Source: Leifsonia sp. 466MF (GTDB lineage Bacteria > Actinomycetota > Actinomycetes > Actinomycetales > Microbacteriaceae). From it: a stretch of DNA of 64,000 nucleotides. The notes beneath the pieces were generated by a model. That model saw only the letters and a list, made by a program, of their open reading frames with translations, made no database searches and had not been told where the DNA came from. The translations under genes and the position numbers were made by a program. This document shows, piece by piece, positions 1,058 through 23,070 of the stretch (position 1 is the stretch's first letter; each line of letters begins with the position of its first letter). The stretch is taken from positions 682,001-746,000 of the forward strand of contig NZ_LT629696.1 of the NCBI RefSeq assembly GCF_900100265.1. Reading direction: 5' to 3'.

Positions 1058-1058
1058 C

Positions 1059-2394: not shown

Positions 2395-2465
2395 GGTCAT
2401 CTCCGTAGCGGTACATCGCTGGCCGCTCTCCCCGCATCCACCCACCCGACCGATTGGACACCGCA

Positions 2466-4387: not shown

Positions 4388-5043
4388 CCGCCTACGAGAC
4401 GCGGTCCCGTTCCGAGGACGCAGGGCTGTCGCTCATCGAGCTGCTCATCGCGATCATGCTGACCGGCCTGATCATGACGCTCGGCGTGTGGATGTTCGTG
4501 GCGGGGACGCACAGCGTGAGCCTTGCCCAGTCGATCGACGGTGGCACTCGGCAGGCGTCGAACGGAATGAACGAGGTCGCCCGGATGATCCGCGCGGCCA
4601 CGCCGAACCCCGTCGTCGCTCCTACGCCCGGCCAGCCGCTCAACGCGCCGGCTGTGATCGCGGCGTCCGCTTCGAGCGTGCAGTTCTTCGCCTATGTCAA
4701 CCTGACGGGTTCGGAAAGCCCCGTGCGGGTGACCTTCGACGTCAACAATGGCATCCTTCGCGAGACGCAGGCTCCTGCAACCTCGACAACGGCCGGTGCC
4801 AACGGCCACTGGGACTTCGGCGCCACCGGGACTCCGCGCAACCTGTGCAACTCCATTCCCGAGGGTGTGAGCGTCTTCCGCTACTTCAACAAGGCGGGCG
4901 CTGAACTGCTTCCAGCCAACCTGTCGACCGACACCCAGCGTGCCGCGATCGCGTCCATCCAGGTGACCATCACCATCCAGCCGACCGGGGCCGCCAATGC
5001 GGTCACCGTGACGAACACCATCGGCATGGCGAACATCGGATAG
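4384..5043 (+). CDS. Pilin-like minor subunit (PilW-like)
   Basis: 219 residues with a prepilin signal: EDAG then LSLIELLIAIMLTGLIMTLGVWMFV, Glu at +5 after cleavage at Gly14. The globular part has no recognised motif. ATG overlaps the previous stop by ATGA. A much longer open frame runs upstream over the preceding gene but is a shadow; the ATG at 4384 gives the canonical minor pilin N-terminus. Likely forms a tip-priming complex with the two neighbouring subunits, as PilV/PilW/PilX do in better-studied systems (inference from family). Confidence 0.8.
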   Translation: MTAYETRSRSEDAGLSLIELLIAIMLTGLIMTLGVWMFVAGTHSVSLAQSIDGGTRQASNGMNEVARMIRAATPNPVVAPTPGQPLNAPAVIAASASSVQFFAYVNLTGSESPVRVTFDVNNGILRETQAPATSTTAGANGHWDFGATGTPRNLCNSIPEGVSVFRYFNKAGAELLPANLSTDTQRAAIASIQVTITIQPTGAANAVTVTNTIGMANIG

Positions 5044-5052
5044 GACAGACCG

Positions 5053-7787: not shown

Positions 7788-7815
7788 ACAACTCGATCAC
7801 GAAAAGGAGGATCGG

Positions 7816-8865: not shown

Positions 8866-9650
8866 GCATCACCATCCGTCGCCCGGTCGAACCGCAGGAT
8901 TCTCCCGAATCGGAGGAGAAGGCATCCGGTGCAAAGACGCCGGGTCAGAGGAAGCCGATCTCGAAGAAGCCGAAGTCCGCCCTGCGTCAGCCCCAGGCCG
9001 GAGCAGGGGAGGGCCTGGTCGTCGGCGGCGACCCGCGGGTCGACCTCCTGCCCCCCGAGGTCCGCTCCGCCCGCCGCAACGCCCGCACCCGACGCGGGTT
9101 CGCATGGGGCGTCCTCGCGGTGTTCCTGGTGGTGGTGATGGCGAGCGGGGGAGCGTTCGGTCTGAACATCGTGGCGCAGGGACAGCTGCTCGTCGCGCAA
9201 GCGAGGACCAACGAACTACTGAGCGAGCAGCAGAAGTACACCGAGGTGCGGAACATCCAGAATCAGGTGGATGTGGCGGTCGCGGCGAAACAGGTAGGCG
9301 CATCCACCGAGGTGGCATGGCAGCCCTTCATTGCGGCTGTCGGCTCGGCGGAGCCGCCAGGACTGAGGATGAAGTCGGTGACCATCGACTCGGCGTCTCC
9401 GATTGCGGTCTACCAGCAATCGACCGATCCGCTGCAGGGGCCTCGGATCGCCACGGTCACGGTCGTCGCGCTGAGTAACACATTTCCGGATGTCCCTGGA
9501 TGGCTTCGTGCTGTTCTTCAGGTGAGGGGAGTCGTCGATGCGACGGCGGGAACGGTCAACCGAGACGACGGCGGCGTCTACACCTCCAGCATCACCATCC
9601 ATGTAGGCGAGGCGCTGTTCACGAAGCGGTTCGAGACGAAGGGCCAGTGA
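8862..9650 (+). CDS. pilN: Type IV pilus alignment protein PilN
   Basis: Bitopic membrane protein bridging cytoplasmic PilM and extracytoplasmic PilO. 262 residues: a long basic, disordered cytoplasmic tail (1-78) ending with VDLLPPE (60-66), equivalent to the INLLP motif that docks on PilM in other species. A transmembrane helix (about 80-104) and a coiled-coil plus ferredoxin-like extracytoplasmic domain follow. The tail before the motif is longer than usual (about 58 versus fewer than 10 residues). ATGA overlap with pilM. Confidence 0.85.
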   Translation: MSITIRRPVEPQDSPESEEKASGAKTPGQRKPISKKPKSALRQPQAGAGEGLVVGGDPRVDLLPPEVRSARRNARTRRGFAWGVLAVFLVVVMASGGAFGLNIVAQGQLLVAQARTNELLSEQQKYTEVRNIQNQVDVAVAAKQVGASTEVAWQPFIAAVGSAEPPGLRMKSVTIDSASPIAVYQQSTDPLQGPRIATVTVVALSNTFPDVPGWLRAVLQVRGVVDATAGTVNRDDGGVYTSSITIHVGEALFTKRFETKGQ

Positions 9651-9651
9651 G

Positions 9652-10368
9652 ATGGACAAGACCAGGCTCTGGATCATCGGATCCGTTCTCGCGATGGTCA
9701 TCATCGCCGGTCTCGGATGGGTGGTCGGAATTCAGCCGCAGCTCGACCAAGCGACGGCTGCGTCTGCCGAGACCTCCCAAGTGGACGGCGGCAACACCAT
9801 CAAGGCAGCCGTTCTGGCGAGGATGAGGAAGGACAGCGAAGATCTCCCGAAGCTCAAGAAAGAGCTGGCCGAGCTGGGTGCCGCAGTGCCGGCCATGGCA
9901 GACTGGCCATCGTTCGCGGATGAGCTGAATACCTTCGCTACAGCAAACGGAGTCACGATCATCGCGACGACGCAAACCGACGGTCAGCCCTATATCCTCC
10001 CCGACTCCCCGAAGCCGTCGGCTCCCGCTGCCGGACAACCAGCCGGCGCCGCGACTCCGACGCCGGTTCCGACCCCGACCCCGACTCCGACGGCCACGCC
10101 GGTTCCCGTCCACATCCCCGGCGCTCCGCCGCTGACGAAGCCGACCATCACGGCCGACAACTTCACCTTGATCCCGGTCTCGGTGACCGTGCGTGGCACG
10201 GAAGATCAGGTCCTCGGATTCGTCAACGCGGCACAGAACGGCACGCGACTCTTCCTCGTCAACGGAATAACGATCGACACCGCAGCATCCGGGGTGGGCT
10301 ACGACGCCAAGCTCAGTGGCTACATCTACGTGCTGACCTCGTCTGCGGACAAGAAGGCCAGCAAGTAG
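9652..10368 (+). CDS. pilO: Type IV pilus alignment protein PilO
   Basis: Partner of PilN. 238 residues: transmembrane helix 6-27, coiled coil (about 50-78), and a ferredoxin-like fold interrupted by a Pro/Thr-rich linker (about 119-163, repeated TPTP). The linker is unusual within PilO and may span peptidoglycan or act as a spacer. Starts one base after the pilN stop. Last gene of the pilus operon; no PilP or PilQ follows, consistent with absence of an outer membrane. Confidence 0.82.
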   Translation: MDKTRLWIIGSVLAMVIIAGLGWVVGIQPQLDQATAASAETSQVDGGNTIKAAVLARMRKDSEDLPKLKKELAELGAAVPAMADWPSFADELNTFATANGVTIIATTQTDGQPYILPDSPKPSAPAAGQPAGAATPTPVPTPTPTPTATPVPVHIPGAPPLTKPTITADNFTLIPVSVTVRGTEDQVLGFVNAAQNGTRLFLVNGITIDTAASGVGYDAKLSGYIYVLTSSADKKASK

Positions 10369-10456: not shown

Positions 10457-11599
10457 ATGAGCGACACGCCGGACGCGCCGAAGCGCGCGACCTACGAGCC
10501 GGGGCCGGACGACGCACGGCCGGAGTCCGAGCAGGCGGCCGCCGAGCAGGCCGGCACGCCCGCGACCGCACCCGCCGCGTCCGCCGCCGCAGAGCCCGCC
10601 ACCGACACGGGGGCACAGGTCGTCGAGCCGCCGTCGAATCCCGTTTCGGCCCGTGGTCACCTTAACCGTCCCGCAGACGACGCCGAGCAGGAGGCGGCCC
10701 CCGTGGCCGCCGCGCCGGCCGAGCCGCAGCGTCCCGCCGCGATCGCCGAGCCGGAGCCTGTCGTCGCGAGCGATGACGATGTCGCGGCCGCCATCGCCCG
10801 TAACAGCCCGCAGCCGGGAGCGACCGCCGCGGGCGACGCGACGGTCGACACCGCCTCACCTGTCGAGTCGGCCACTCCGGTGATCGTCGCAGCCGAGGCC
10901 GCCACTCTGAGTCAGGGCGACACCGCAACGACCGCGTATGGCAGCGTCCCGCCGGGCGCACCGGCCGCGGCCGCGACCACCGCCCCCGGCCCGCAGCCGG
11001 TCGCCCCGATCTACCTCACGCGCCCCGAGCCGCCGAAGAAGAAGAGCAACCGCGGCGTCGGCATCCTCATCGCCCTCGTCGGCACCGTCGCGTTCGCCAT
11101 CCTGTGGGCCGGCGCCGTGCTCATCGTCGGGTCGCTGCTGACGCCGAGCAACGAGTTCGGCCCGGCGCTCCTCGAGTTCTTCACGGGTGGTCGCGCGTTC
11201 GGGATCCGCGGTTGGGCGCCCGTCGTGGCGTTCTTCATCGGGATGGTCGTGCTCATCCAGATCCTGAACCGCGCGCGCTGGTGGGCCTACATCCTGGGCG
11301 GCCTGTTCGTCGCGGTGTTCGTGTACTTCGTCTACATCGGCGCCGGCCTGATCGATGCCCAGTACTGGCTCCGCAACTCCGACGAGTTCGCCATCCTCAT
11401 GCGGAGCGCCTGGGTGAGCCCCCTCGCTGTGCTCGCCGGCGTGATCGCCCGCGAGGTGTCGATCTGGACGGGCGCGTGGCTCGCCGCCCGCGGCCGCAAG
11501 CTGAAGGCGCGCAACGCCGAGGCGCAGGCCGACTACGAGCAGCAGGTCGCCGACGCCCAGAACCAGGCCGTCGCCGCCTACGCGCAGCAGGGGTACTGA
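10457..11599 (+). CDS. Membrane protein with long Ala/Pro/Glu-rich N-terminal region
   Basis: 380 residues, no family recognised. About the first 195 residues are low complexity (Ala, Pro, Glu, Thr) and probably disordered. Then a basic KKKSNR stretch and four predicted transmembrane helices (GVGILIALVGTVAFAILWAGAVLIV, VVAFFIGMVVLIQIL, WWAYILGGLFVAVFVYFVYIGAGLI, SPLAVLAGVIAREVSIWTGAWLAA). The last 45 residues are a charged Ala/Gln helix ending AQQGY that could be a coiled coil. ATG 10457 is preceded by GGAGGAGCCAGG. Forms a pair with the next membrane gene, 22 nt downstream, which converges on the secretion ATPase; a role in envelope organisation is possible but unproven. Confidence 0.7.
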   Translation: MSDTPDAPKRATYEPGPDDARPESEQAAAEQAGTPATAPAASAAAEPATDTGAQVVEPPSNPVSARGHLNRPADDAEQEAAPVAAAPAEPQRPAAIAEPEPVVASDDDVAAAIARNSPQPGATAAGDATVDTASPVESATPVIVAAEAATLSQGDTATTAYGSVPPGAPAAAATTAPGPQPVAPIYLTRPEPPKKKSNRGVGILIALVGTVAFAILWAGAVLIVGSLLTPSNEFGPALLEFFTGGRAFGIRGWAPVVAFFIGMVVLIQILNRARWWAYILGGLFVAVFVYFVYIGAGLIDAQYWLRNSDEFAILMRSAWVSPLAVLAGVIAREVSIWTGAWLAARGRKLKARNAEAQADYEQQVADAQNQAVAAYAQQGY

Positions 11600-11621
11600 C
11601 CGGGAGGGCCCGCAGCCGACC

Positions 11622-12116
11622 ATGCGTGACGAGCGCGTCTACGCAACCGTCGTCGCCTTCTTCGCGACGGGGCTGTACCTCGCTCTGGTCGTCGCCGCGT
11701 TCGGCCTGGTCTCCCTCGCGACCGACAGCGATGTCGTCGCCGACCCGGACGTCGGGCCGCTGGTCGGCCCCGTCATGGTGGTGGCGTCGGCGGTCATGCT
11801 GCTCGTGTTCCTCATCGTGCTCGGGACGCGCGTCCCGGCCGAACGCCAGCGGGTCTCGCCCGGTGTCGCGTTCGGCGTCGGAGTCGCCTGCTATGCCGTG
11901 TTCATCGCGGCGGGCGGTATCGCCGGTGCGGCAGGCGACCCGAACGACCCGTTCCACTACTTCCTGTTCGCGTTCGCCCAGCTCCTGCGCTGGCCCGCCA
12001 TCACGATCGCGGTCCTGGCGTTCGCGGTGACGCTGCTCTACCAGCTGGTGCTCGTCGGACGCTTCCGCCAGCGCGGGCGTCCGCGCTGGCCGTGGGAGGG
12101 CGACGACGAGGACTAG
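11622..12116 (+). CDS. Small four-helix membrane protein, unknown function
   Basis: 164 residues with four hydrophobic segments (about 8-32, 48-70, 85-106, 116-146) and short charged ends. No catalytic motif. It follows the previous membrane gene by 22 nt, probably in one transcript, and ends 15 nt before the convergent secretion ATPase gene, so the two 3' ends nearly meet. No function can be assigned from sequence. Confidence 0.7.
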   Translation: MRDERVYATVVAFFATGLYLALVVAAFGLVSLATDSDVVADPDVGPLVGPVMVVASAVMLLVFLIVLGTRVPAERQRVSPGVAFGVGVACYAVFIAAGGIAGAAGDPNDPFHYFLFAFAQLLRWPAITIAVLAFAVTLLYQLVLVGRFRQRGRPRWPWEGDDED

Positions 12117-12131: not shown

Positions 12132-15100
12132 TCAGACACGGACGCGCGCCGGGAGGGACGCATCCACCAGCGGCACCTGAACCCGCGTGAAGCCGCCCTT
12201 CTGGATGAACACACCGCGTCCCGGAGGGAACTCGGACCGGTTCAGGCGCGGCAGCGGCGTCTTCAGCAGGATGTCGCCCTCGACCGAGTCCGGCTGCAGC
12301 AGCAGCCCGCGCCGGCCGTTCTTCACCTCGCCGAGCAGCGGCCATGACGTGCCCCACGCGCTCGACTCCGCCTCCGCGACGAGCAGGTGATCGCTGCGCC
12401 GGATGGCGCGGATCAGCTCCACGATGGGGGAGTCGGCGGGCGTCTGCAGGAAGTCGCCGATGCTCTCGACGAACACCGCGATCCGCCCCTCGGTGTCCGG
12501 GTCGGCGATGGCGACGGCGAGGTCCTTCGCGAGCTCGGCGGCGTCCGCCTGCGTGAGCGCGCGGTCCGTCCACAGGCTCGACCCGGAGAGCGGAGACCGG
12601 GCGCTTCCCACGTAGTACAGCCGCGTCTCGGCGTCGAAGCGCGCCACCGCATCCGCCACCGCCGCCAACGCGGTCGTGCGACCGCTGGCCGGGGGACCGG
12701 CGACGAGCAGCGTCCCTGATGGCTCGAAACCGAGCGGGCCGAGGTCGATGTCGCCGATGCCGAGCACGGGCTGTCCGCCGACGCTGTCCGGAAGGGACGC
12801 GGGGTCCAGCTCCTTCGGCATCGAGCCGACCACGGGCGCCTCCGGGATGCCGGCGCGCTCCATCGCCTCGGCGAGACGGCGGACGGCCTCCGACTGGTCC
12901 GCGACGGCGCGCGAACCGCCAAGCACGGCGATCTGCGTCTCGTAGCCGTCGACGATCGCGCGGCCGGGAGGGGACGCGGGCGAGAGGATATCGCTGGGCA
13001 CGTCGAGCATCCCGTACCCGTCGTCCGCCAGCCGCAGCACCACGCGGCGCTGTACGAGCGAGCCGATCGCGGTGGGGACGGCGCCGGCACGGTCGCCGGT
13101 CAGCGCCACGTGCATCCCGAGGCGTCGGCCGTCGGCCAGCAGGTCGCGGAACACGTCGTACCACTGCGACCGCCCGGCCGGGATCTCGAAGTCCTCGCGG
13201 AAGCTGGGGAAGCCGTCGACGAGAAGCAGGATGCGCGGCTCCTCCTGGCGGCCGGTCAGCGACCGGTACTCGGTGATGTTGGACGCGTTGGCTTCGGCGA
13301 AGCGCGGGCCGCGGTCCTCGAGCGTCTCCTTCAGCATCCGGAACAGCCGGATGATGCGCTCCGGGTCGTCGCCGGGGATGATCGAGCCGACGTGCGGGAG
13401 CTTCTCCAGCATCCGCAGGCTTCCCGCGCCGAAGTCCAGGCCGTAGACGTGCACCGGGCCGCCGCGCGGAGTGATCGCGGCGGCGGAGGCGAGGGTGCGG
13501 AGCGCCGTGGACTTGCCGGAGCCGCCGGTGCCGTAGACGGCAAGGTTGCCGTCGACATCGGGCTGGAAGTAGACCGGGCGCTGCTCCTGGCGGTCGGGGA
13601 TGTCGGCGACACCGAGCAGCAGTTCCGCGTCGGTGCGCTGCCGCAGCAGCCCGAGGTCGTAGGCGGTGGCGAGCTCGTCGAGCCACGGACGGCGGGGAGC
13701 CGGGATGTGCGCGGCCGACTGCGCGCGCACGATCGCGGCGACCATCCGCTGCTGGTCCGTGGGGCCGAGGTCGCGCTCCGGCTCCTCGGCGGGCCGCTCC
13801 TCCTCCCAGCGCACCTCGCCGCCGAAGCGGAGCTCGGCGACCTCGACGCCCGCCCGCTCGGGCTCGCGGGTGGTCCAGCCGCCGGCGTAGGCCGACTGGA
13901 ACCGCACGAGACGGCCCGGCCCGGTCTTCGCCATGCCGCGGCCGGGGATGCTCGGGTCGAAATGTGCGGCGTCGGCGACGCCGACCACGTCCTGGCTGTC
14001 GGACTCGTCCGCCATGCGCAGCGCGATGCGGAGGTTGGTGTTGGCGCGGAGGTTGTCCTTGATGACACCCGCCGGCCGCTGCGTCGCCATGATGAGGTGG
14101 ATGCCGAGCGAGCGTCCGCGCTGGGCGATGTCGACGACGCCGTCGACGAACTCCGGCACCTCGCCGACCAGCGCGGCGAACTCGTCGATGACGAGCACGA
14201 GCGCGGGCGGACTGTCCGGATCGCCGCGCTTCTCCAGCTCCAGCAGGTCCTTCGCCTTCTTCCGGTTGAGCAGGTGCTCACGGTAGTGCAGCTCGGCGCG
14301 GAGGCTGGTGAGCGCACGGCGCACCAGGTGCGGGCTCAGGTCGGTGACGAGGCCCACGCAGTGCGGGAGGCTGACGCAGTCGGCGAACGCGGACCCGCCC
14401 TTGTAGTCCACGAACAGGAAGGTGACGCGGTCGGGGCTGTACTCGGCGGCCATCCCGAGCACCCACGCCTGCAGGAACTCGCTCTTGCCGGCGCCGGTGG
14501 TGCCCCCGACGAGCGCGTGGGGTCCCTGCGTGCGCAGGTCGAGGTGCATGGCATCGACGCCGGCCGACCCGATGGTCGCGCGCAGCGTGCCGGGGCGGCG
14601 TCGCGTGGGCTTCGCGCCGGCGGTGCGGTCGTGGATGGAGGCGTTCTGCCGCCAGCGGTCGACCACCGCACTCGACGACTCGGCCAGCTCGTGTCCGAGC
14701 AGCGTCACCAGCGACACGGAGCGCGGCAGGTCGCTGGCGTCGGCGACGAGGGCTCCGGCGTCGATGACGGGGGCCATCCGCTTGGCGTAGTCGAGCGCGG
14801 TCGCGGCGCTGACCGGCTCGGTGACGACGTCCTCCACCGTCTCGCCGATGCGGACGAAACCGGCCCGCGCGCGGTGCGGCTGGTCGGTGTGCTGAAGGAA
14901 CGTGCGGCAGACGGCCGGGAGCCGGTCGACGTCGTCCGAGATCCACACAGGGAAGACGCCGGCGTCGGCCGCCGCCTCGGCGAGCTGCACGAGGCGGGCG
15001 CGGTCGACGGCGACGTCGTCGGAGATGACGACGATCACCGCGGGGACCGGCGATGGCGTCCCGTTGCTGGTCTGCGAGCGTCCGACCTCCGCGCCGCGCT

Positions 15101-16646
15101 CGAGGGCGGCGCTCTCCTGCTCCATGGCACCACGCCGCTGCGGGCCGGCCTTCGCGGCCGCGAGGCGTTCCTCGACGAGGCCCTCGAGCGAGCTCAGCAC
15201 GCCGGCGGCCGAGGATGCGCTGTCGGCGAGGTGAGCGCCGGCCAGCGGGCTGTGCGGGGACGAGGTGTGCGGCATCCACTTCAGCCAGCCGAGCTCGCGC
15301 GACCACCGCGGTGAGACGAGGGCGGCGACCGCCAGCTCGGAGGGGGAGTGCAGGGCGGTGAGCTGGACGAGCACCGAGTTCACCGATCCCGCGACGAGGT
15401 CCGCCGGTCCGGCGATGCCGAGCGCCCCGGACTCGTACAGGTTGTCGAGCACCGGGACGTCCTCGACCAGGGCGTTGTCGGCGATGACCGTGTCGAGGCG
15501 CTCCTGGAACTCGACGATCAGCTCGCCCCGGTCGACGGCCTGCACGGTGTTGCGCGACCGCATGGTGCCCCGGCCCAGCTGCAGGTTGAGGAACGACCAG
15601 TGCTCCGGGCGCCGCGTCCAGAGCAGCGGACCGCGGCGGACCGCCTCGGCGAGGGCGTCCGCGGTGGTCGGCGTCTCCGCCTGGCGCAGCTCGACCTCCG
15701 TGGTGCGCTCCTGCTCCAGCTTGCTGGAGAGCGCCTCGAGCCGCTGCTCGAACAGCGCGATCTGCTTCTTGAGCTTCCGCTTGCCGCGGGTGCGGCCGCT
15801 GATGTAGTTGCCGACGAGCATCACCGGCGACAGCAGCACGAAGAGCAGGCTGGTCGGGTTGTGCGTCAGGAAGAACATCGCACCGCCGAGAAGCAGCGGC
15901 GTGATCATGGCGAGCAGGGGGAAGGGCGGGTCGTCCTTCTCGCCGGGCACCTCGGGCGCCTGGAAGACCTGCCCGGAGTATCGCCGCTCGACGCGCGGCG
16001 ACCGGTTGAAGAACACCGGGCCCGCGGTGGGCGGAGCCGCCGGCAGCTCGGACCCCGACTTCACCTCGAGCTCCACCTCGGTGTCGCCGAGCAGCAGCGT
16101 CTCCGACCGCCGCACGGTGAACCGGGTCACCAGCCCGCCGTCGACGACGACACCGTTCGCCGAGCCCAGGTCGACGACCTCGACGCCGTCGCCCGCCTCG
16201 AACCGCACGTGACGCTTCGAGACGAGGGGATCCTGCAGAACGATGTCGCACGACTCGTCGCGACCGAGCACAGTGGTCCCGGCGCGCAGCGGGAACTCCG
16301 TGCCCTCCTGCGGACCGCTGAGCACCCGGAGCGTCGCGACGACCGGCACGTCGCCGAGTTCGGGGGAGACGTAGTGGAGGCCGGCGTCGGCCAGCGCGAC
16401 CGTCGCACCGCTGCCGATCCACGCCTCCCCGACCGGGGCGTCCGGCGGCAGGACGAGCGGATCGGCCTGTCCGGGAAGCTGGGCGCGGAGCGTCAGCGCG
16501 CCTGGCGCGGCGACCGGTCCGGTGCGCCGCGGATCGATCCGCGCCACGGTCGAGGCGACCTCGGCGATGCTGGCGGCGGCGTCGGCGGTGACGACGATGT
16601 CATCGCTGCTGCCGGACGGGCGGGCGAGAGTCAGTTTCAGTCGCAC
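12132..16646 (-). CDS. Type VII secretion FtsK/SpoIIIE ATPase with FHA domain (EssC/EccC-like)
   Basis: Membrane-anchored ATPase that drives export of WXG100-type substrates. About 1504 residues: an N-terminal ubiquitin-like region, an FHA domain (about 105-195; GRDESCD, SKRHVRFE, LGSANG), two transmembrane helices (about 242-283), then three tandem FtsK/SpoIIIE ATPase domains. ATPase 1 has GGTTGAGKS (714-722) and VLVIDEF (817-823); ATPase 2 has GTGGSGKS (1039-1046) and LLLVDGF; ATPase 3 has the altered GPPASGRT (1317-1324) and VFVESIGDF, so it is probably not a normal hydrolase. The one-chain architecture with FHA resembles firmicute EssC more than split mycobacterial EccCa/EccCb. Start: GTG 16646, preceded on this strand by TATGGT and 6 nt, fits leaderless translation; the open frame extends to 16718 but that part lacks similarity. 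Confidence 0.92.
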   Translation of the reverse strand: MRLKLTLARPSGSSDDIVVTADAAASIAEVASTVARIDPRRTGPVAAPGALTLRAQLPGQADPLVLPPDAPVGEAWIGSGATVALADAGLHYVSPELGDVPVVATLRVLSGPQEGTEFPLRAGTTVLGRDESCDIVLQDPLVSKRHVRFEAGDGVEVVDLGSANGVVVDGGLVTRFTVRRSETLLLGDTEVELEVKSGSELPAAPPTAGPVFFNRSPRVERRYSGQVFQAPEVPGEKDDPPFPLLAMITPLLLGGAMFFLTHNPTSLLFVLLSPVMLVGNYISGRTRGKRKLKKQIALFEQRLEALSSKLEQERTTEVELRQAETPTTADALAEAVRRGPLLWTRRPEHWSFLNLQLGRGTMRSRNTVQAVDRGELIVEFQERLDTVIADNALVEDVPVLDNLYESGALGIAGPADLVAGSVNSVLVQLTALHSPSELAVAALVSPRWSRELGWLKWMPHTSSPHSPLAGAHLADSASSAAGVLSSLEGLVEERLAAAKAGPQRRGAMEQESAALERGAEVGRSQTSNGTPSPVPAVIVVISDDVAVDRARLVQLAEAAADAGVFPVWISDDVDRLPAVCRTFLQHTDQPHRARAGFVRIGETVEDVVTEPVSAATALDYAKRMAPVIDAGALVADASDLPRSVSLVTLLGHELAESSSAVVDRWRQNASIHDRTAGAKPTRRRPGTLRATIGSAGVDAMHLDLRTQGPHALVGGTTGAGKSEFLQAWVLGMAAEYSPDRVTFLFVDYKGGSAFADCVSLPHCVGLVTDLSPHLVRRALTSLRAELHYREHLLNRKKAKDLLELEKRGDPDSPPALVLVIDEFAALVGEVPEFVDGVVDIAQRGRSLGIHLIMATQRPAGVIKDNLRANTNLRIALRMADESDSQDVVGVADAAHFDPSIPGRGMAKTGPGRLVRFQSAYAGGWTTREPERAGVEVAELRFGGEVRWEEERPAEEPERDLGPTDQQRMVAAIVRAQSAAHIPAPRRPWLDELATAYDLGLLRQRTDAELLLGVADIPDRQEQRPVYFQPDVDGNLAVYGTGGSGKSTALRTLASAAAITPRGGPVHVYGLDFGAGSLRMLEKLPHVGSIIPGDDPERIIRLFRMLKETLEDRGPRFAEANASNITEYRSLTGRQEEPRILLLVDGFPSFREDFEIPAGRSQWYDVFRDLLADGRRLGMHVALTGDRAGAVPTAIGSLVQRRVVLRLADDGYGMLDVPSDILSPASPPGRAIVDGYETQIAVLGGSRAVADQSEAVRRLAEAMERAGIPEAPVVGSMPKELDPASLPDSVGGQPVLGIGDIDLGPLGFEPSGTLLVAGPPASGRTTALAAVADAVARFDAETRLYYVGSARSPLSGSSLWTDRALTQADAAELAKDLAVAIADPDTEGRIAVFVESIGDFLQTPADSPIVELIRAIRRSDHLLVAEAESSAWGTSWPLLGEVKNGRRGLLLQPDSVEGDILLKTPLPRLNRSEFPPGRGVFIQKGGFTRVQVPLVDASLPARVRV

Positions 16647-16680
16647 TTCAGCACCATACCCATCTCCTCGCCCGCACGTG

Positions 16681-16700
16681 GATGGGGACCGCTCCCCATC
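16681..16700 (+). promoter_or_regulatory. Palindrome ATGGGGA-CCGC-TCCCCAT in the T7SS divergent promoter region
   Basis: A perfect 8-bp inverted repeat (GATGGGGA, 4-nt centre, TCCCCATC) lies between the leftward ATPase gene and the rightward WXG100-like gene. A -10-like TACGTT (16722-16727) starts 22 nt after the core palindrome, so the palindrome covers the -35 region of the rightward promoter. The same core recurs at 20477-20494 in front of the second WXG100 gene. Probable binding site of a regulator shared by the island. Confidence 0.7.
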
Positions 16701-16783
16701 GCTTCCCCGCTGGTCCACCGGTACGTTGCTGAAGACAGGATGACCGGAGGACTCCGGCGGTCGCCACCGGAAGGGGAGGAACA

Positions 16784-17086
16784 GTGTCCGATCTCGTACT
16801 CAAGCTGGACGAGCTGGTGCAGCTGCGCGATGACCTCGACGCCGTCGTGCGCGAGTTCCAGAACGCCGACGACTTCAGCGACTCCGTCGCCGAGGCGACC
16901 GGGCACGACGACCTGCACAGCCACGTCCGCGACTTCGCCCACAAGTGGAACGAGAAGCGCAAGGAGATGACCGAGAACGTGAAGAACGTGCAGCAGGTCA
17001 TCGCCGCAGTGGCGGACAACTTCGTGAAGGTGGACGGCGACCTCGCCAAGGCGCTGGACGAGAAGAAGGGTGCGGACCACAAGTGA
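16784..17086 (+). CDS. WXG100-like small helical protein (putative T7SS substrate/partner)
   Basis: Exactly 100 residues, all helical: two amphipathic helices separated around residues 36-43 (EATGHDD), with Trp55 in HKWNEKR rather than a strict W-x-G turn. The C-terminus FVKVDGDLAKALDEKK recalls the Y/F-x-x-x-D/E export signal placed after the second helix in WXG100 proteins (F76, D80). GTG 16784 has GGGGAGGAACA directly upstream. Its stop overlaps the start of the next gene (GTGA), and it sits next to the secretion ATPase. Likely a heterodimer partner or chaperone for the following large protein; the family call rests on length, fold pattern and context. Confidence 0.7.
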   Translation: MSDLVLKLDELVQLRDDLDAVVREFQNADDFSDSVAEATGHDDLHSHVRDFAHKWNEKRKEMTENVKNVQQVIAAVADNFVKVDGDLAKALDEKKGADHK

Positions 17087-18441
17087 GCGACAAGGAGTTC
17101 CAGCCGCTGACCGGCGACCCCGACGTCCTGGAGGCGAAGGCCCGGCACTACGAGTCGATCGGCGAGGCGATCCAGCGCTCCGTGAAGGAGCTCAACAAGA
17201 TCCACGACCTCGACGGCTACAAGTCCCAGGCCGTATCGAAGCTGCAGGAGATGTCGAAGGACACCGCAGAAGACATCAACAAGGCCAAGGACCGCTACTC
17301 GAAGACGGCGAACGCGCTGATCACGTACGCCGCCCAGTTGCGCGAGGCGCAGGACGACGCCGACAAGGCCATCGCGCTGATCGAGCAGAAGCAGAGCGCG
17401 GCGGATGCGGCGCACAAGGCGGCGACGACCGCCCACACCGACGCGCAGAAGGCGAAGCCGGAGGACGCCGCGACCGCGGGCAAGTCGGCCGACAAGGCCG
17501 ACGATGCCGCCCGCGACGCCAACGCAGCCCTGCAGGCGGCGCACCAGGCCTGGTACGACGCCCGCGACAAGAAGAACCGCGCGGCCGAGAAGGCGGTCGA
17601 CGCGATCGTCGACGTCGTCGACCACCACAACAACGGCCTGAAGAACCCGGGCTTCTGGGACAAGGTGATGGATGTCATCGAGACCATCGGCGACATCGCC
17701 GGGGTCCTGGCGATCTTCCTCTCCTGGGTTCCGATCCTCGGACAGGTGCTGGTCGTGATCGCGCTGGTCGCATCCATCATCAAGCTGGTCGATGCCGTCG
17801 TGAAGTTCGCGAACGGCGAGGGCACGTTCCTCGACATCATCGGAGCCGCCGTCGGCGTCGCGCTGAGCCTCTTCGGCGGACGCATCTTCGCGTTCCTCGG
17901 AAAGGCCGCGCGCATCAAGGCGCTGGCCCGTGCTCCGCGGCTGGTCGGCGGTGTGCGCACCAGCCCGAACGCCATGCTCAAGATGCAGATCGGCAAGCGC
18001 TTGATGAAGTCGGCGACGAAGAAGCTCTTCGAGAAGCCGCTCAACGACGTCAACCCGGTCAAGATCTGGCAGGCCGCCGGCGAGTCGGCCGCCGGCCAGC
18101 GCGCCGCGTACAAGGCCCTGGTGACGGATGGCGCCGACAAGGCGAAGGCGATGCGGACGCTGCTCGGCATCGACCAGAACGTCGTGCGGGCCGTCTCGCA
18201 TGACGTCGGCGCCCGCGAGGTGAACCCGCTCACCGTCGTCGCCGCGTACCACCAGGGCACCGCGCTGATCAACAAGGGCATCGAGCTGGTCAACGCTCCG
18301 GGCAAGGTGGACGAGATCGCCAACAAGTTCGACGGCGGCAACCACACCGATCTGCCCAAGATCCCCAGCATCGACCTGCAGAAGTTCGCGCTCGGCCAGG
18401 CGGACAAGTATGTTCCGACCTACAAGAGCAACAACGGCTGA
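17083..18441 (+). CDS. Putative T7SS-associated large helical protein with membrane segments
   Basis: 452 residues. The first ~90 residues (LTGDPDVLEAKARHYESIGEAIQRS...) resemble the helical T7SS targeting region found before toxin domains. Residues 90-190 are an Ala/Lys/Asp-rich coiled coil. Two hydrophobic stretches (about 203-240 and 250-274) could be membrane-inserting helices. The C-terminal ~175 residues are basic and helical without a known toxin motif. Translationally coupled to the WXG100-like gene (GTGA). It could be an exported pore-forming or effector protein, or a membrane component of the machine; no immunity gene is evident unless it is one of the two small genes that follow. 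Confidence 0.65.
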   Translation: MSDKEFQPLTGDPDVLEAKARHYESIGEAIQRSVKELNKIHDLDGYKSQAVSKLQEMSKDTAEDINKAKDRYSKTANALITYAAQLREAQDDADKAIALIEQKQSAADAAHKAATTAHTDAQKAKPEDAATAGKSADKADDAARDANAALQAAHQAWYDARDKKNRAAEKAVDAIVDVVDHHNNGLKNPGFWDKVMDVIETIGDIAGVLAIFLSWVPILGQVLVVIALVASIIKLVDAVVKFANGEGTFLDIIGAAVGVALSLFGGRIFAFLGKAARIKALARAPRLVGGVRTSPNAMLKMQIGKRLMKSATKKLFEKPLNDVNPVKIWQAAGESAAGQRAAYKALVTDGADKAKAMRTLLGIDQNVVRAVSHDVGAREVNPLTVVAAYHQGTALINKGIELVNAPGKVDEIANKFDGGNHTDLPKIPSIDLQKFALGQADKYVPTYKSNNG

Positions 18442-18456
18442 GGAGGCTGACCCGGT

Positions 18457-19077
18457 ATGACGCTGCGCCCGCGCGACATCGTCGACTTCACGTTCGAGGC
18501 CCCGGAGGGTTGGTACGACGTCGAGCTGCTGAACGAGGACCCTCGAGGGGACTGGCCGGAGCGATTCGCGGCCACCCTGGACGCGGGTGCGCAGGCGGCC
18601 GGCCTGACGGCCCAGCTCCGCGCCCTGCAGCAGGTGCTGCACGCCGAGGACCCGACCGGCGCCACCCGCGCGCGGGTGTACATCCCGATCCCGTCGGCGG
18701 GCGTCTTGAACGCCTACCAGACCTTCGAGCTGCTGCAGCTCGAGGTCGACGACAGCCCGGAGAGCTACCTCGCGGCGACCGACGCGGATGCGGCCGAACG
18801 CCGCCCCGGCTACGAGACCCTCGGCTACCGCTCCTGGCGCACGGCCCACGCGGTCGGCGAGCTCGTCGGCTTCACGCACCTGACGGCCCTCGCCGACGAC
18901 GACGCGGGCGACGCCCTCCTGGAGCAGCGGGTGGTCTTCGCGATCTTCCCGGTCGGGTCCGCACAGGCGTTCCACACCGTGTTCCGATCGGGATTCATCG
19001 GCGGCTTCGACGACATGGTCACTGACACGCAGGCCATCGCCGACTCGCTGCGCGTCACTCTGGGGGAGTTCGCATGA
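18457..19077 (+). CDS. Small globular protein of the T7SS island (first of pair)
   Basis: 206 residues, no signal peptide or transmembrane helix. It begins with a beta-rich segment (FTFEAPEGWYDVELLNED) and ends with IADSLRVTLGEFA, a layout like DcrB/PsbP/LpqN-type folds that have a 'W...' strand and a terminal helix, but the match is only by eye. A GAGGAGG site lies 10 nt before the ATG. It follows the large helical protein by 15 nt and overlaps the next gene by ATGA. Could be a chaperone, adaptor (EspG-like role) or immunity protein; unproven. Confidence 0.6.
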   Translation: MTLRPRDIVDFTFEAPEGWYDVELLNEDPRGDWPERFAATLDAGAQAAGLTAQLRALQQVLHAEDPTGATRARVYIPIPSAGVLNAYQTFELLQLEVDDSPESYLAATDADAAERRPGYETLGYRSWRTAHAVGELVGFTHLTALADDDAGDALLEQRVVFAIFPVGSAQAFHTVFRSGFIGGFDDMVTDTQAIADSLRVTLGEFA

Positions 19078-19685
19078 CCGACGCACGTCTGACCTCACTC
19101 GACGATGAGCTCACCATCGTCTTCCCGGGCACGTGGGTGATGATCCCGCTGCACGACGAGGAGGCGGCCTCCCGGCGCATCGCGCGCCTCGTGACCGAGC
19201 GGGTCGGTCGCGCCGACCGGCTGGCGCGCGTCCGGCGCACGGCGAAGACCGAGCTGGAGCACCTGGTCGCCCTGGCGGACGCGACCTCGGCTTTCGCCCT
19301 CGCGCTCTCCATGGAGATCCTCCCGGGGGTGCCGTTCCCCGCCTCCATCGTGCTGTCGCGCGAGGAGTGGCCGACGACACCCGGACCGGACGACGACACC
19401 GCCACGCACCTGCAGCGCTGCTTCCCGGACGACGACGCGTTCGAGTTCTCCATCGGGCCGGTGCGACGTCGATCGCAGGTCCGGCAGACGACCTACGACG
19501 AGCAGTCCGCTCCCGAACTGGTGGCCGACTACCGGTTCGCGGTTCCGGACGGCTCGCGTCTCATCCACGCGCGCATCAACGCGCCGATGGCGACGGCTCC
19601 GGAGCTCTACCTGGAGTTGTTCGACGCGATGATCGACTCGATCAGCTTCCGCGCGCCTCTCGTGCAGCCGGCCTCCGCCCGCTGA
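19074..19685 (+). CDS. Small globular protein of the T7SS island (second of pair)
   Basis: 203 residues, soluble. Same overall layout as its upstream neighbour: an N-terminal strand region with a Trp (IVFPGTWVMIPL), a long middle, and the ending LYLELFDAMIDSISF. It may be a distant paralogue. Start overlaps the previous stop (ATGA). Its last 44 bases overlap, on the opposite strand, the 3' end of the convergent membrane-protein gene, in a stretch built of 15-bp repeats. Function unknown; operon position suggests it serves the WXG100-like/large-protein pair. Confidence 0.6.
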   Translation: MTDARLTSLDDELTIVFPGTWVMIPLHDEEAASRRIARLVTERVGRADRLARVRRTAKTELEHLVALADATSAFALALSMEILPGVPFPASIVLSREEWPTTPGPDDDTATHLQRCFPDDDAFEFSIGPVRRRSQVRQTTYDEQSAPELVADYRFAVPDGSRLIHARINAPMATAPELYLELFDAMIDSISFRAPLVQPASAR

Positions 19686-20430
19686 CCTTCCGTCCGCTCA
19701 CCTTCCGCCCGCTCACCCGGCGGCGGTACTCGCGGACGATCAGCATGACGGTGGTCACCACGAGCGCCGCCGTCACAACGGTCCAGACGACCGCGCCGAT
19801 CGGGCCGACCGGCCAGAACAGCCAGCCGGCGACGAGGAACGACGCGAGACCGTAGGGGATGCCGGCGACCAGCACAGCGCGTCCCGGTCGCCAGCCGAGG
19901 AACATGATCTCGGTCCAGAACGCCGTCCAGGGCGTCATCCGGACCGGGAGCAGCGACAGTGCCGTCTTGCCGACCGTCACCGGCCCGATGACGTTGCGCG
20001 ACCATCCCGTGCTCGACAGCCGCTCGCCCGCATACGACGGTCGCAGGCTGCGGACCACGTACGTCCACGACAGCACGGCGAGCGAGACCGATCCGAGCGC
20101 GAGCGCGACGAACGCGTACCCGAGAAGCGGGACGAGCACGACGAGGGCGAACACGAGGAACAGCACGATGATCACGGTGTCGCCGCCCGTGACGAACTCG
20201 CGGGAGCTGAAGTCGGGGTTCGTGCTCCAGAGACCGAAGGGCAGGGCGGCGGGGAGAGCCACCGTGACCGCCCCGAGCACCGTCCACACCAGGGCCACCA
20301 GCAGGTATCCGAGAGGGCGGAGCGCGCGCTCGGCCTGCGACGGCGGTGTCGAGGAGCGGTCCGAACGCGACCTGGTTCCGCGTGCAGCGGCGGAGTTCGG
20401 GTTCGGCTTCATCGGGCTGTACGACGGCAT
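19642..20430 (-). CDS. Membrane protein divergent from the second WXG100 gene
   Basis: 262 residues with about five hydrophobic segments: RPLGYLLVALVWTVLGAVTVAL, VIIVLFLVFALVVLVPLLGYAFVALALGSVSLAVLSW (two), AVLVAGIPYGLASFLVAGWLFW and GAVVWTVVTAALVVTTVMLIV. It ends with a basic tail of repeated VSGRK units. A longer upstream frame exists but ATG 20430 is preceded by TAGCGT and 7 nt, matching the leaderless pattern seen for neighbours; ATG 20412 is an alternative. The promoter region shares the ATGGGGA/TCCCCAT palindrome with the WXG100 gene. Candidate membrane component of the secretion system, by context only. Confidence 0.65.
   Translation of the reverse strand: MPSYSPMKPNPNSAAARGTRSRSDRSSTPPSQAERALRPLGYLLVALVWTVLGAVTVALPAALPFGLWSTNPDFSSREFVTGGDTVIIVLFLVFALVVLVPLLGYAFVALALGSVSLAVLSWTYVVRSLRPSYAGERLSSTGWSRNVIGPVTVGKTALSLLPVRMTPWTAFWTEIMFLGWRPGRAVLVAGIPYGLASFLVAGWLFWPVGPIGAVVWTVVTAALVVTTVMLIVREYRRRVSGRKVSGRKVSGRRPAAREARGS
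19672..19715. repeat. 15-bp tandem repeat at convergent 3' ends
   Basis: CCTTCCGYCCGCTCA occurs at 19686-19700 and 19701-19715, with a degenerate copy at 19672-19685. On the minus strand it encodes the VSGRK repeats of the membrane protein tail; on the plus strand it includes the stop of the facing gene. Confidence 0.6.
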
Positions 20431-20476
20431 GGCAGCCACGCTATCCCGCTGGCCCGGCGAGCGTGAACTCCGACGG

Positions 20477-20494
20477 ATGGGGAGTGCTCCCCAT
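20477..20494 (+). promoter_or_regulatory. Second copy of palindrome ATGGGGA-GTGC-TCCCCAT
   Basis: Identical 7-bp arms and 4-nt spacing to the element at 16682-16699, again between divergent genes and again 22-23 nt upstream of a -10-like hexamer (TAGGTG, 20518-20523) of the rightward WXG100 gene. Conservation of arms, centre length and promoter position argues for a real operator. Confidence 0.7.
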
Positions 20495-20583
20495 TCCGTC
20501 CTCTCCGCAGGCCTGGTTAGGTGGACGTAGCTGGTCGGCCCCGGGGGTACGGCCTCTTTCGAACCGAAGGGATAAGGACCGTC

Positions 20584-20880
20584 ATGGCCAACATGAACGT
20601 CACGTACGGCGAGATGACCGATGCCGCCAACCGCCTCATCGCGGGCAAGGACGACATCACCGCGAAGCTCCACGAGCTGCAGAACCTGGTGAACGGGCTC
20701 GTGAACGGGGGCTTCGTCACCGACCAGGCGTCCGGCGCCTTCCACACCTCGTACGAGCAGTTCACCAAGGGCACCACCGAGGCGGTGAACGGACTCGACG
20801 GGATGTCGCAGTTCCTCACCAAGGCGGCCGACGCCCTGCAGAACGTCGACAGCGAGCTCGCCAAGGGCATCGGCGGCTGA
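20584..20880 (+). CDS. WXG100 family protein (ESAT-6-like)
   Basis: 98 residues, two amphipathic helices with the turn GGFVTDQASGAFHTSY around residues 41-56. The usual Trp of W-x-G is replaced by Phe (GFV), a variation also expected in actinobacterial members (recalled). The C-terminus DALQNVDSELAKGIGG carries a weak export-signal-like pattern. ATG 20584 follows an AAGGA site. A strong terminator lies 20 nt after the stop, so it is probably expressed as a single highly produced mRNA. Likely the main substrate of the neighbouring EssC-type ATPase. Confidence 0.85.
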   Translation: MANMNVTYGEMTDAANRLIAGKDDITAKLHELQNLVNGLVNGGFVTDQASGAFHTSYEQFTKGTTEAVNGLDGMSQFLTKAADALQNVDSELAKGIGG

Positions 20881-20900
20881 GCCGAACCCACACGACAGCG

Positions 20901-20937
20901 GAGCGCGGGTACCCCGAACGGGTGCCCGCGCTCTTCT
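20901..20937 (+). terminator. Terminator after the WXG100 gene
   Basis: GAGCGCGGGTACCC (20901-20914) pairs with GGGTGCCCGCGCTC (20920-20933), 14 bp with one G-U, loop CGAAC, followed by TTCT. Separates the WXG100 unit from the downstream paralogous pair. Confidence 0.75.
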
Positions 20938-20998
20938 GCGTCCCGCCCCTAAGCTGACTGTCGGCCGATCGGTATCCGGCCGGTATGGGGGAGTCCAC

Positions 20999-22045
20999 GT
21001 GAGCACCGAGTCCGAAGCCGCGCCCGCGAAGCGCACCGTCCGCGTCCGCTGGTTCTGGTGGGTCCTCGCCGCCGCTGCCGTGCTGTGCACGGCCGTCGGC
21101 GCCTTCTTCTCCGTCACCACCGTCGCGGCGGCGCAGAGCATGCCGCGCACCGTGGTCGCGCGCTATCTCGACGCCCTCGTGCACGGCCATGCCCGGGAGG
21201 CGATGACGCTGGGCGGGATCACTCCGCGATCCGGCGACATCCTGTTGACCCAGAAGGCCTACGCCACCGCGACCGACCGCATCACCTCGTTCACGCTCGG
21301 GGCCCCGGTCACCCGCAAAGGCGTGACGACGGTGGATGCGACGGTCGAGCAGGGCGATCGCCCGTACCACCGCTCCTTCCGCGTCGTGCGCGCGGGTGGC
21401 CTGCCGTTCCTCCCGCTGTGGAAGCTGGCACCCGTGACGCCGGACACCGTCGAGGTCGAGACCGCGGGGCCCAGCGGCCTGAGCTTCACCATCGCGGGTG
21501 TCACGCCGTCGAGCGATGACGCTGTTGCGAAGCTGCGCGCCCTCCCCGGCAGCTACCCGGTGAAGGTCAGCTCGTCGAGCGCCGATTACTCCGCGAAGAG
21601 CGGTGTCGCCATCTCGCATCCGGTCGGCAGCGTCGTCACTCCGACGCAGTTCGCCGCCGAGCTCTCCGAAACGGGCTACGCGGATGCGAAGAAGGCCGTC
21701 GAGGACTGGCTGGACGCCTGCCTCGCCACGCAGGACGCCGCTCCGGCGAACTGCCCGTTCCTGGTGAAGGACGAGACGGCGAACGGCGTCCGGCTGAGCG
21801 ACCTGCGGTGGGCGCTGGTGACGCGCCCCGAGGTCGACATGTACGGAGACTGGCACGACGGAGGGTGGGACGTCCGCGGCTCCGGCGGCTCGGTCACGGC
21901 GACGGCGAAGGTGACCAGGCTCGCCGACGGCGCCACCGGGCAGGTCTCGACCGGCGACATCCCGTTCGCGTACTCGGGCACGGTCACCTTCACCGGCGAC
22001 GGTGCGGTCTTCACGCCGGCGCGGGGCGACGGGTCCCAGGGCTGA
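20999..22045 (+). CDS. Membrane-anchored extracytoplasmic protein, paralogue 1
   Basis: 348 residues: short basic cytoplasmic N-terminus, one transmembrane helix (FWWVLAAAAVLCTAVGAFFSV, about 18-38), and a secreted domain. The domain opens with RTVVARYLDALVHGHAREAMTLGGI, which resembles the helix pair of NTF2-like domains, continues with GDILLT, and later has a cysteine pair C-x10-C (LDACLA ... CPFLV). The next gene has the same motifs in the same order. GTG 20999 is preceded by GGGGGAG and 5 nt. Located just beyond the WXG100 gene; may be an envelope component or a surface protein. No enzyme motif seen. Confidence 0.7.
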   Translation: MSTESEAAPAKRTVRVRWFWWVLAAAAVLCTAVGAFFSVTTVAAAQSMPRTVVARYLDALVHGHAREAMTLGGITPRSGDILLTQKAYATATDRITSFTLGAPVTRKGVTTVDATVEQGDRPYHRSFRVVRAGGLPFLPLWKLAPVTPDTVEVETAGPSGLSFTIAGVTPSSDDAVAKLRALPGSYPVKVSSSSADYSAKSGVAISHPVGSVVTPTQFAAELSETGYADAKKAVEDWLDACLATQDAAPANCPFLVKDETANGVRLSDLRWALVTRPEVDMYGDWHDGGWDVRGSGGSVTATAKVTRLADGATGQVSTGDIPFAYSGTVTFTGDGAVFTPARGDGSQG

Positions 22046-22047
22046 GC

Positions 22048-23070
22048 GTGGAGAAGTCGACACGGACGGCGCTGTGGCTGGGCGCCACGGCGGTGGTACT
22101 CGCCACGCTCGCGGGCGCCGTGATGTCGGTCGGGACGATCGGCATGGCGCAGGAGCTGCCGCGCACGCTGGTCGCGCGGTACCTGACCGCGCTCGAGCAC
22201 GGCAAGGCGGAGCAGGCGATGCGCATCGCCGGGATCCACCGCTCGGCCGGGGATATCCTGCTGACCGACACGGCGTATGCCAAGGCCACGCATCGCATCA
22301 CGTCGTTCACCGTCGGCCACCCGGTGACCCGGTCGGGCCGCACGACCGTTGAGGCCGTCCTCACACAGGGCGACCAGGAGCAGCGCCGTACGTTCGCGTT
22401 CGAGCGGACCGGCGGGCTCCCCGGCGTCCCGCTCTGGCGCATGGCGAAGGTCGCACCGGACACGGTCTCGTTCGAGGTGCAGGCGCCGGACGGGATGACC
22501 TACTCCATCGCCGGCATCAGGCCCGTGAAGCAGGCGCTGCGCACGATCGTCACATTCCGCGCTCTCCCGGGCAGCTACCCCATGAGCTTCACGTCGCCCA
22601 ACGCCGCCTACCGGATCTGGGATGCGGACGTGGCATCCAGCCCGTCCGACCGGACGAAGACCACCCGCTTCCCGGCCCAGCTCTCGTCCGATGGCGACAC
22701 CGCCGCGCGCGCCGCCGTCGACGCGTGGCTGGACGCGTGCCTCGCGACGACCGTTCCCGATCCGGCCGGATGCCCGTTCGTCGTGGACGACACGACAGAC
22801 GACGGCTACACGGTGAGCGGCGTCCAGTGGAAGCTGGACCAACGCCCCTTCGTCGCGGTCGACTCCTCGTGGGCGCACGGCGGATGGATGGTGTCGAGCG
22901 ACGAGGGGACCGTCGAGGCCTCCGGAACGGTGACGAGCCCCACGGACGGCTCGACCGGCCCGGCGTCGACGGATCCGTTCTCGTTCCAGTACTTCGGATC
23001 CGTGACGTTCGGCCCGGACGGCGCCCCCGTGTTCACGCCCCAGTACGAGGACGGGACGACCCAGGGCTGA
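22048..23070 (+). CDS. Membrane-anchored extracytoplasmic protein, paralogue 2
   Basis: 340 residues and a clear tandem paralogue of the preceding gene: TM helix (ALWLGATAVVLATLAGAVMSVG), RTLVARYLTALEHGKAEQAMRIAGI, GDILLT, FRALPGSYP, and the same C-x10-C pair (LDACLA ... CPFVV). The two also share the ending GSVTF/GTVTF...VFTP. GTG 22048 lies 2 nt after the previous stop; the longer frame upstream is a shadow. Tandem duplication followed by divergence (roughly 35-40% identity by eye) suggests a heteromeric complex or diversified surface function. Confidence 0.7.
   Translation: MEKSTRTALWLGATAVVLATLAGAVMSVGTIGMAQELPRTLVARYLTALEHGKAEQAMRIAGIHRSAGDILLTDTAYAKATHRITSFTVGHPVTRSGRTTVEAVLTQGDQEQRRTFAFERTGGLPGVPLWRMAKVAPDTVSFEVQAPDGMTYSIAGIRPVKQALRTIVTFRALPGSYPMSFTSPNAAYRIWDADVASSPSDRTKTTRFPAQLSSDGDTAARAAVDAWLDACLATTVPDPAGCPFVVDDTTDDGYTVSGVQWKLDQRPFVAVDSSWAHGGWMVSSDEGTVEASGTVTSPTDGSTGPASTDPFSFQYFGSVTFGPDGAPVFTPQYEDGTTQG

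Follow-up and report, generated by a model that had tools for sequence, protein, structure and literature searches.

A proposed T7SSd-related type VII secretion variant in Leifsonia sp. 466MF: an ATPase island and its candidate PFNA-type partner operon

The window analysed here is a stretch of 64,000 nucleotides (C1:682001-746000) from the one-contig, 4.14 Mb genome of Leifsonia sp. 466MF, and it contains an island resembling a type VII secretion system (T7SS) with an FHA-EssC-type ATPase. The reading favoured here, with moderate confidence, is that the island is the motor-and-cargo arm of a type VII variant related to the T7SSd, and that a PFNA-type operon, detached in this genus, is its envelope and control arm. 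Judged by gene content, the parts that the island seems to lack probably sit elsewhere in the same genome, because many relatives keep both gene sets side by side. If this reading is right, it also warns that an island examined in isolation can look as if it lacks parts that have in fact relocated. An initial annotation of this DNA had described a T7SS-like island, and all the genes that it named are confirmed as open reading frames (ORFs). The ATPase and its cargo cassette comprise the following features:

12132..16646, minus strand: FHA-EssC-type ATPase of 1504 residues, with an N-terminal domain, an FHA domain, two transmembrane segments, and FtsK-type NTPase domains
16377..16646, minus strand: N-terminal domain of the ATPase (about residues 1-90), predicted with hhalign to be ubiquitin-like, of the YukD/EccD type
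16784..17086, plus strand: WXGa, a divergent WXG100 partner of 100 residues with a profile match to the WXGb family; it adjoins the effector-like gene in relatives
17083..18441, plus strand: effector-like putative substrate of 452 residues (PF21725), with a T7SS_signal domain, a hydrophobic part at about 195-265, and a variable C-terminus
18457..19077, plus strand: s8, a small soluble protein of 206 residues, paralogous to the 19074 family and often kept after the effector gene
19074..19685, plus strand: s3, a small soluble protein of 203 residues, paralogue of s8
19642..20430, minus strand: membrane protein of 262 residues with about four transmembrane segments, a sporadic member of the cassette
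20584..20880, plus strand: WXGb, a TsdA-type WXG100 protein of 98 residues (PF06013, 3e-15), with SGAF instead of W-x-G

The detached operon is a compact same-strand cluster of eight genes at C1:2110377-2125045, about 1.4 Mb from the island. It encodes a PP2C protein, an FHA protein of 421 residues, a serine/threonine (Ser/Thr) kinase with one transmembrane segment, an FHA-like protein, a giant of 1757 residues with immunoglobulin (Ig)/fn3 domains and a single N-terminal transmembrane segment, a MoxR protein, a DUF58 protein, and a TgpA-like transglutaminase with about eight hydrophobic segments. Pfam matches are found for the kinase, Ig/fn3 giant, MoxR AAA, DUF58, transglutaminase, PP2C, and FHA proteins. 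Pfam also bears out the module types in representatives, except for the FHA-like and six-transmembrane proteins, which have no match. Searched with the N-terminal 390 residues of a giant, this genome yields two giants, of which the one in the detached operon is the closer (46%).

The two gene sets stand together in many relatives. The ATPase is present in 42 of the 120 genomes of the family sample (counted at about 40% identity or more, some matches being fragmentary), and 41 neighbourhoods were compared, namely 40 stretches from 39 other genomes, one of them with two copies, and the locus described here. A block of the ATPase, WXGb, WXGa, the effector-like gene, s8, and s3 is common among them, in many cases with a polytopic membrane protein. 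The eight proteins of the detached operon were scored as modules, with a giant of about 1750 residues. In 15 of the 41, the ATPase block has three to seven of them next to it, frequently together with an RDD protein, and in 14 more, including this one, the module set is present yet detached. In the 13 of these 14 other than the present genome, the giant locus has the giant, kinase, PP2C, and FHA protein in every case and the FHA-like protein in 12. In one detached set (G074), WXGa and effector-like genes come after the transglutaminase gene. A class-1 giant is found in 31 of the 42 ATPase genomes and 10 of the 78 others. Class-2 giants were counted separately and kept out of the evidence, because they are present without this ATPase.

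The same arrangement extends to public genomes, for which the best 80 of 582 confirmed ATPase relatives were kept, with more relatives beyond those. Carriers among these 80 include Leifsonia poae (80%), Frigoribacterium, Humibacter, Microbacterium, Agromyces, Arthrobacter, and Pseudarthrobacter, and also Promicromonospora, Cellulosimicrobium, Brachybacterium, Nocardioides, and Aeromicrobium. The 53 well-flanked loci, with at least 9 kb on either side of the ATPase, have at least five of the eight modules in 32 cases, three or four in 8, and one or two in 3. The gene immediately upstream of the ATPase encodes the FHA-like protein in 32 of the 80 loci, with a 4-base overlap in 18 of these, and an RDD protein in 29; gene starts were taken from the analysis's own codon-based caller. 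The order of the FHA-like and ATPase genes recurs across genera of several families. In a sample of 297 genomes from the order (ATPase cut-off of at least 900 bits; four weak FHA-like matches of 44-52 bits excluded), the FHA-like protein is present in 124 genomes: 74 of the 88 with the ATPase versus 50 of the 209 without it (Fisher p = 2e-22). Both genes are within 25 kb of each other in 61 of these 74. What the sequences show directly is the two gene sets, their adjacency in relatives, and the statistical association between them.

Several observations weigh against joining the two arms. Neither arrangement is seen in 12 of the 41 family neighbourhoods; ten of these belong to genomes without a class-1 giant, mostly at 40-48% ATPase identity, and of the other two, one is from G057, where pieces of a giant lie at the ends of contigs, and one surrounds a second copy of the ATPase, with only a kinase gene nearby. 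No module is nearby in 10 of the 53 well-flanked public loci. In the order sample, the FHA-like protein is missing from 14 of the 88 ATPase genomes, although in one of these (G128) the ATPase is still accompanied by MoxR, DUF58, transglutaminase, and PP2C. The 50 genomes with the FHA-like protein and without this ATPase include 26 with another EssC-like match (E ≤ 1e-100) and 24 with none. The co-occurrence tests ignore phylogeny. The FHA-like protein was named for its N-terminal motif, as read here, and has no Pfam FHA match. Nor was any polytopic channel similar to EccD found. A second paralogous locus (L138, C1:1878569-1898568) contains RDD, transglutaminase, DUF58, MoxR, giant, kinase, PP2C, and FHA genes, and neither an FHA-like protein nor a T7SS ATPase is called in it; giants like the one at this locus occur widely across the family. 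PFNA genes therefore need not serve secretion.

An alternative is that the island is a working minimal T7SS, with the PFNA-type operon only a neighbouring signalling and cell-wall module, perhaps co-regulated. This explanation is possible but rather unlikely. It draws on the PFNA-like genes that occur without this ATPase (the L138 locus, and 50 of the 124 genomes with an FHA-like protein) and on the 10 module-free public loci, and it is opposed by the 4-base overlap in 18 of the 32 adjacent pairs, by a gene order repeated in genera of several families, and by the retention of both genes in 74 of 88 genomes.

Known subunits of type VII systems do not accompany the ATPase. The initial annotation had recognised no EccB, EccD, or EssB in the island, and scans of ten island proteins each with Pfam and NCBIfam (the Pfam set including 19642, the NCBIfam set 11622 in its place) agree, with no match to the EccB, EccD, EssB, and YukD models. 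The same scans found no EccE or mycosin among the island proteins, and no dedicated genome-wide search was made for these two. EccB (PF05108) has no match in this genome and is positive in 12 of the 120 family genomes. Among the 42 ATPase genomes, EccB is found in three, EssB in two, and any YukD/EccD-type match in five; both EccB and EssB are missing from 37, and a separate YukD (PF08817, E ≤ 1e-3) is likewise missing from 37. YukD-type domains occur in 24 of the 120 family genomes. The view that the island is a distinct actinobacterial variant, without the known T7SSa or T7SSb channel subunits, is therefore upheld.

The other part of that interpretation was that five local membrane or anchored proteins may replace the channel, and it is not supported, since none of the five is generally conserved with the ATPase across the neighbourhoods of relatives. 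One of them, 19642, is listed above; the other four are:

10457..12116, plus strand: two membrane proteins of 380 and 164 residues (10457 and 11622), in the pil/rpoC-rpsL interval and judged to be outside the secretion system
20999..22045, plus strand: anchored ectodomain protein with one transmembrane segment, lineage-restricted and not core
22048..23070, plus strand: tandem paralogue of the 20999 ectodomain protein, not core

The 10457 gene has pilM, rpoC, or fusA alongside it in all 12 family neighbourhoods that contain it and in 8 of 9 public loci, the exception being a short contig (L199), and 11622 adjoins it in many of these loci. Both genes were rejected as a channel, as they track the pil/rpoC-rpsL interval and not the ATPase. 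The island is adjoined by what is presumably a type IV pilus-type cluster (window 1-10368), with an assembly ATPase, an inner-membrane protein, pilins, a peptidase, a PilM-like protein, and two further genes; synteny is seen in the neighbourhoods of relatives. The products of 20999 and 22048 are paralogues, as had been described, encoded in tandem and with 48.6% identity. Outside this genome they occur only in Leifsonia poae (L182), one of 120 other neighbourhoods, and relatives of 19642 occur in only 6 of the 120, so that these three were also set aside. A self-sufficient island in which the five stand in for channel subunits is very improbable, even though all five are membrane or anchored proteins within or beside it. 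The detached PFNA-like genes are better candidates for channel parts.

Homologues of known subunits do exist elsewhere in this genome, in a T7SSb-type locus at C1:238445-252997 (L006 and L007) with a WXG100 protein, YukD, YukC/EssB (1.7e-62), an EssC of its own, and a sub-threshold LXG match. A 935-residue ORF at this locus reads as EsaA/Pip-like, with only a sub-threshold ABC2_membrane match. The YukD of this locus is the only EccD-type YukD domain found in the genome. The presence of a T7SSb locus in this actinomycete suggests a transfer from Bacillota. An ATPase that borrows EssB, YukD, and other subunits from this locus is scarcely plausible. The components are available in the same genome, but the family sample has EssB (YukC, PF10140) in only 2 of its 120 genomes, each belonging to this genus, and a phylum sample has it in 1 of 296, as against 42 of the 120 family genomes for the ATPase. 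EssB thus does not co-occur with the ATPase, and the T7SSb locus has its own EssC. The initial annotation would have been refuted by channel homologues elsewhere in the genome that co-occur with this ATPase, and this applies only in part, as such homologues exist but EssB does not follow the ATPase. As a supplier of subunits this locus was set aside, being genus-restricted in the samples.

The ATPase itself has an intact reading frame, with FtsK/SpoIIIE (7.5e-54) and FHA (7e-12) domains found by Pfam on a single chain, which bears out the one-piece FHA-EssC architecture first proposed for it. The FHA domain has the SKRH and SANG motifs, and two canonical Walker A motifs are located at 715 and 1039. 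Its score against the NCBIfam EssC model is 504 bits, below the cut-off of 778 bits, so the protein is EssC-like yet outside the curated equivalog. The nearest solved relatives by sequence are EccC 4nh0 (2e-97), YukB 9qks (4e-85), and EccC5. Membership of the FtsK family would allow a coupling or translocation ATPase for a role other than protein export, such as a relic or a DNA-linked function. The intact Walker motifs and frame, the relationship to EccC and YukB, and the WXG genes in 42 of the 53 well-flanked public loci make this hard to credit.

A quick tree of 64 ATPases places the 24 window-type rows together in a single group (support 100). This group is separate from the T7SSa, T7SSb, and T7SSd-type rows, and the deeper branching order is unsure because of long branches and uneven composition. 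The T7SSd-type rows come from loci assigned by gene content and order as in PMC11217815, in three closely related genomes of another family within the order. Other FHA-EssC-type ATPases with about 31-37% identity are found in family genomes (loci L162-L181), most with WXG proteins and their own neighbour sets, and some adjoin PFNA-like genes. These ATPases probably represent more T7SS subtypes.

The residues ahead of the FHA domain can be aligned across ATPases and are probably a YukD-like ubiquitin fold, by homology to distant ATPases. A profile of 21 distant N-termini (18 distant and three T7SSd-type) matches YukD/EccD with an hhalign score of 35.0 and a probability of 85, and the maximum for 119 slices of unrelated families is 15.6. 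All 141 N-termini pooled score 26.0 against YukD (null maximum 14.8). The window-type N-termini alone reach 17.2 (null maximum 17.0), which is not significant, and an earlier hhalign comparison of this domain alone was marginal (P 0.005). The YukD-like assignment therefore depends on the homology of the window-type set to the distant set (hhalign 98.2%, 2.9e-14), and a clear YukD score came only from the more distant homologues. Single-sequence Pfam searches of 29 N-termini give weak matches to YukD in two (best 0.046) and to a UBX-like model in four (best 0.025), and two T7SSd-type N-termini scanned singly have no Pfam match. The YukD profile finds no significant single match over 151 whole ATPases (best domain E 0.18), and a sequence search of the PDB with the N-terminal domain gives no ubiquitin-like match at E up to 10.

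The cargo cassette contains two WXG100-type proteins, both of which had been named in the initial annotation. WXGb is assigned by PF06013 despite the absent W-x-G, which is found in residues 36-65 of none of 88 members of its family. WXGa alone has no WXG100 match in Pfam and only 0.04 in NCBIfam, and its family profile aligns with that of WXGb (hhalign 90.9%, E 1e-6), so it is WXG100-like by family profile. Its gene overlaps the effector-like gene by 4 bases. The effector-like protein matches T7SS_signal (PF21725) at 7e-9, its hydrophobic segments at about 195-265 are conserved, and no recognised toxin domain was found in it. Residues 1-110 are 27-59% identical in 23 of 24 relatives (some partial) and 80% in L. 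poae, whereas over residues 271-360 the same 23 do not exceed 24% identity and L. poae reaches 87%. Against a genome of the same genus (G055), the identities of five regions from N- to C-terminus are 54%, 41%, 58%, 23%, and 20%. In sequence terms this is the pattern of a polymorphic substrate. At least two effector-like genes are called in 11 of the 80 public loci.

The genes of s8 and s3 overlap by 4 bases, and their families are related (hhalign 95.4%, E 2e-8). Both are proposed to be effector chaperones or adaptors. They could not be placed in a named family, as no Pfam match is convincing and the link to the LpqN-like family is only marginal (P 0.003-0.008). The 53 well-flanked public loci contain effector- or LXG-like genes in 31 cases and s-family or LpqN-like genes in 32. 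A sister operon type (loci L065, L061, L067, L240, L243, and others) instead has a cassette that combines LpqN-like proteins with a WXG protein and a second, WXG-like one, Gly-rich in the example inspected. At its s8/s3-like place, 6 of 20 rows match PF10738 (LpqN-like; best 2e-6) and 1 of 20 matches DcrB (0.018). At the place of 19642, relatives carry different families of polytopic membrane proteins, which would, as a guess, fit swapped immunity proteins; a relationship between the 19642 family and a six-transmembrane family at the same place elsewhere (P 0.018) was not accepted.

From these gene sets a secretion function may be inferred, together with a route for the substrate across the envelope. 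The Ser/Thr kinase, reset by PP2C, would phosphorylate a partner on threonine. This mark would be read by the FHA domains found in the ATPase and in the 421-residue protein, and perhaps by the FHA-like protein, which would license assembly, and MoxR and DUF58 would remodel the complex. The single-anchor Ig/fn3 giant and the transglutaminase-like protein would form the envelope-spanning part. The ATPase, with its built-in YukD-like domain, would export the effector-like protein along with the two WXG proteins; in the cytoplasm, s8 and s3 may shield the hydrophobic segment of the effector-like protein.

A wider and more tentative proposal is that the PFNA cluster, known in bifidobacteria as an operon for host signals and adhesion, provides a type VII subtype of its own in Micrococcales and relatives with a phospho-regulated envelope arm, the giant Ig/fn3 protein being the exit path, and that the missing ubiquitin-like subunit of the T7SSd is fused to the ATPase N-terminus in both subtypes. 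If true, this would join the literatures on bifidobacterial PFNA and on type VII secretion, give a testable set of partner genes for the channel-less FHA-ATPase islands of many actinobacteria, and account for the ubiquitin-like subunit reported absent from the T7SSd.

The system resembles the T7SSa (ESX; EccB-E and MycP) in its related FtsK-type ATPase and its actinobacterial host. In contrast, no EccB match is present in this genome, and the FHA domain is on the ATPase. It shares with the T7SSb the FHA-EssC architecture on a single chain. However, the island lacks EssB and a free YukD, and its ATPase is in another clade. The adaptor chaperones of the type VI secretion system (T6SS) with a DUF1795/DcrB fold, such as EagR, are likewise small and soluble and accompany a substrate that has hydrophobic segments, but s3 and s8 match no Pfam family convincingly. 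An association of MOG1/PspB-like proteins with the T6SS is listed in PMC3482391.

The detached locus has the same gene types as the bifidobacterial PFNA operon, a likeness of published gene content and not of sequence (PMC8430577 and PMC6803598). That operon comprises the pkb2 kinase, an FN3 protein, a MoxR-type AAA protein, DUF58, and a transglutaminase, with prpC and fha in some species; its kinase phosphorylates the MoxR protein, according to PMC8430577. It is discussed for adhesion and cytokine binding (PMC8430577 and PMC6803598). In contrast, FtsK, WXG, and secretion are absent from the main text of PMC8430577. A literature search found no paper that joins PFNA with type VII secretion, and a Mycobacterium chelonae prophage study mentions type VII secretion with MoxR and DUF58. 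Type VII secretion and Microbacteriaceae are mentioned together in two papers.

The closest comparison is with the T7SSd, which consists of TsdA, TsdC, TsdD, TsdH, and TsdI in Garrett et al. 2024 (PMC11217815). The main text of that paper contains no MoxR, fibronectin, transglutaminase, Arthrobacter, or Microbacterium, and its supplements may include such loci. The T7SSd-type locus of G199 has a WXG protein, a kinase, a one-transmembrane ORF of at least 123 codons, an Ig-like-domain protein of 1800 residues with a transmembrane segment at either end, and the ATPase. The WXG protein, kinase, and ATPase are matched in all three such loci, and an FHA protein follows in all three. Both systems have an FHA-bearing TsxC ATPase, a TsdA-type WXG100 protein (WXGb is 49% identical over 96 residues to that of a T7SSd-type locus, E 9e-33), and a large Ig-like envelope protein. 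The one-transmembrane Ser/Thr kinase of the detached locus may correspond to the membrane kinase TsdD, its 29% identity lying in the kinase domain, which is generic. However, the island ATPase is not in the TsdC clade, as the T7SSd-type ATPases group elsewhere in the quick tree. No homology was detected between the detached giant and the TsdI-like protein, and the giant was rejected as a TsdI orthologue; it has no significant profile match and no C-terminal transmembrane segment, and a weak BLAST match over 101 residues (E 0.003) was left out of account. The present system also adds PP2C, FHA, FHA-like, MoxR, DUF58, and transglutaminase proteins, and often RDD. The T7SSd is reported to be without a ubiquitin-like protein (Garrett et al. 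2024, PMC11217815), whereas the ATPase described here probably carries a fused YukD-like domain; it is proposed that the T7SSd appears to lack this protein because the domain would be fused to its ATPase as well.

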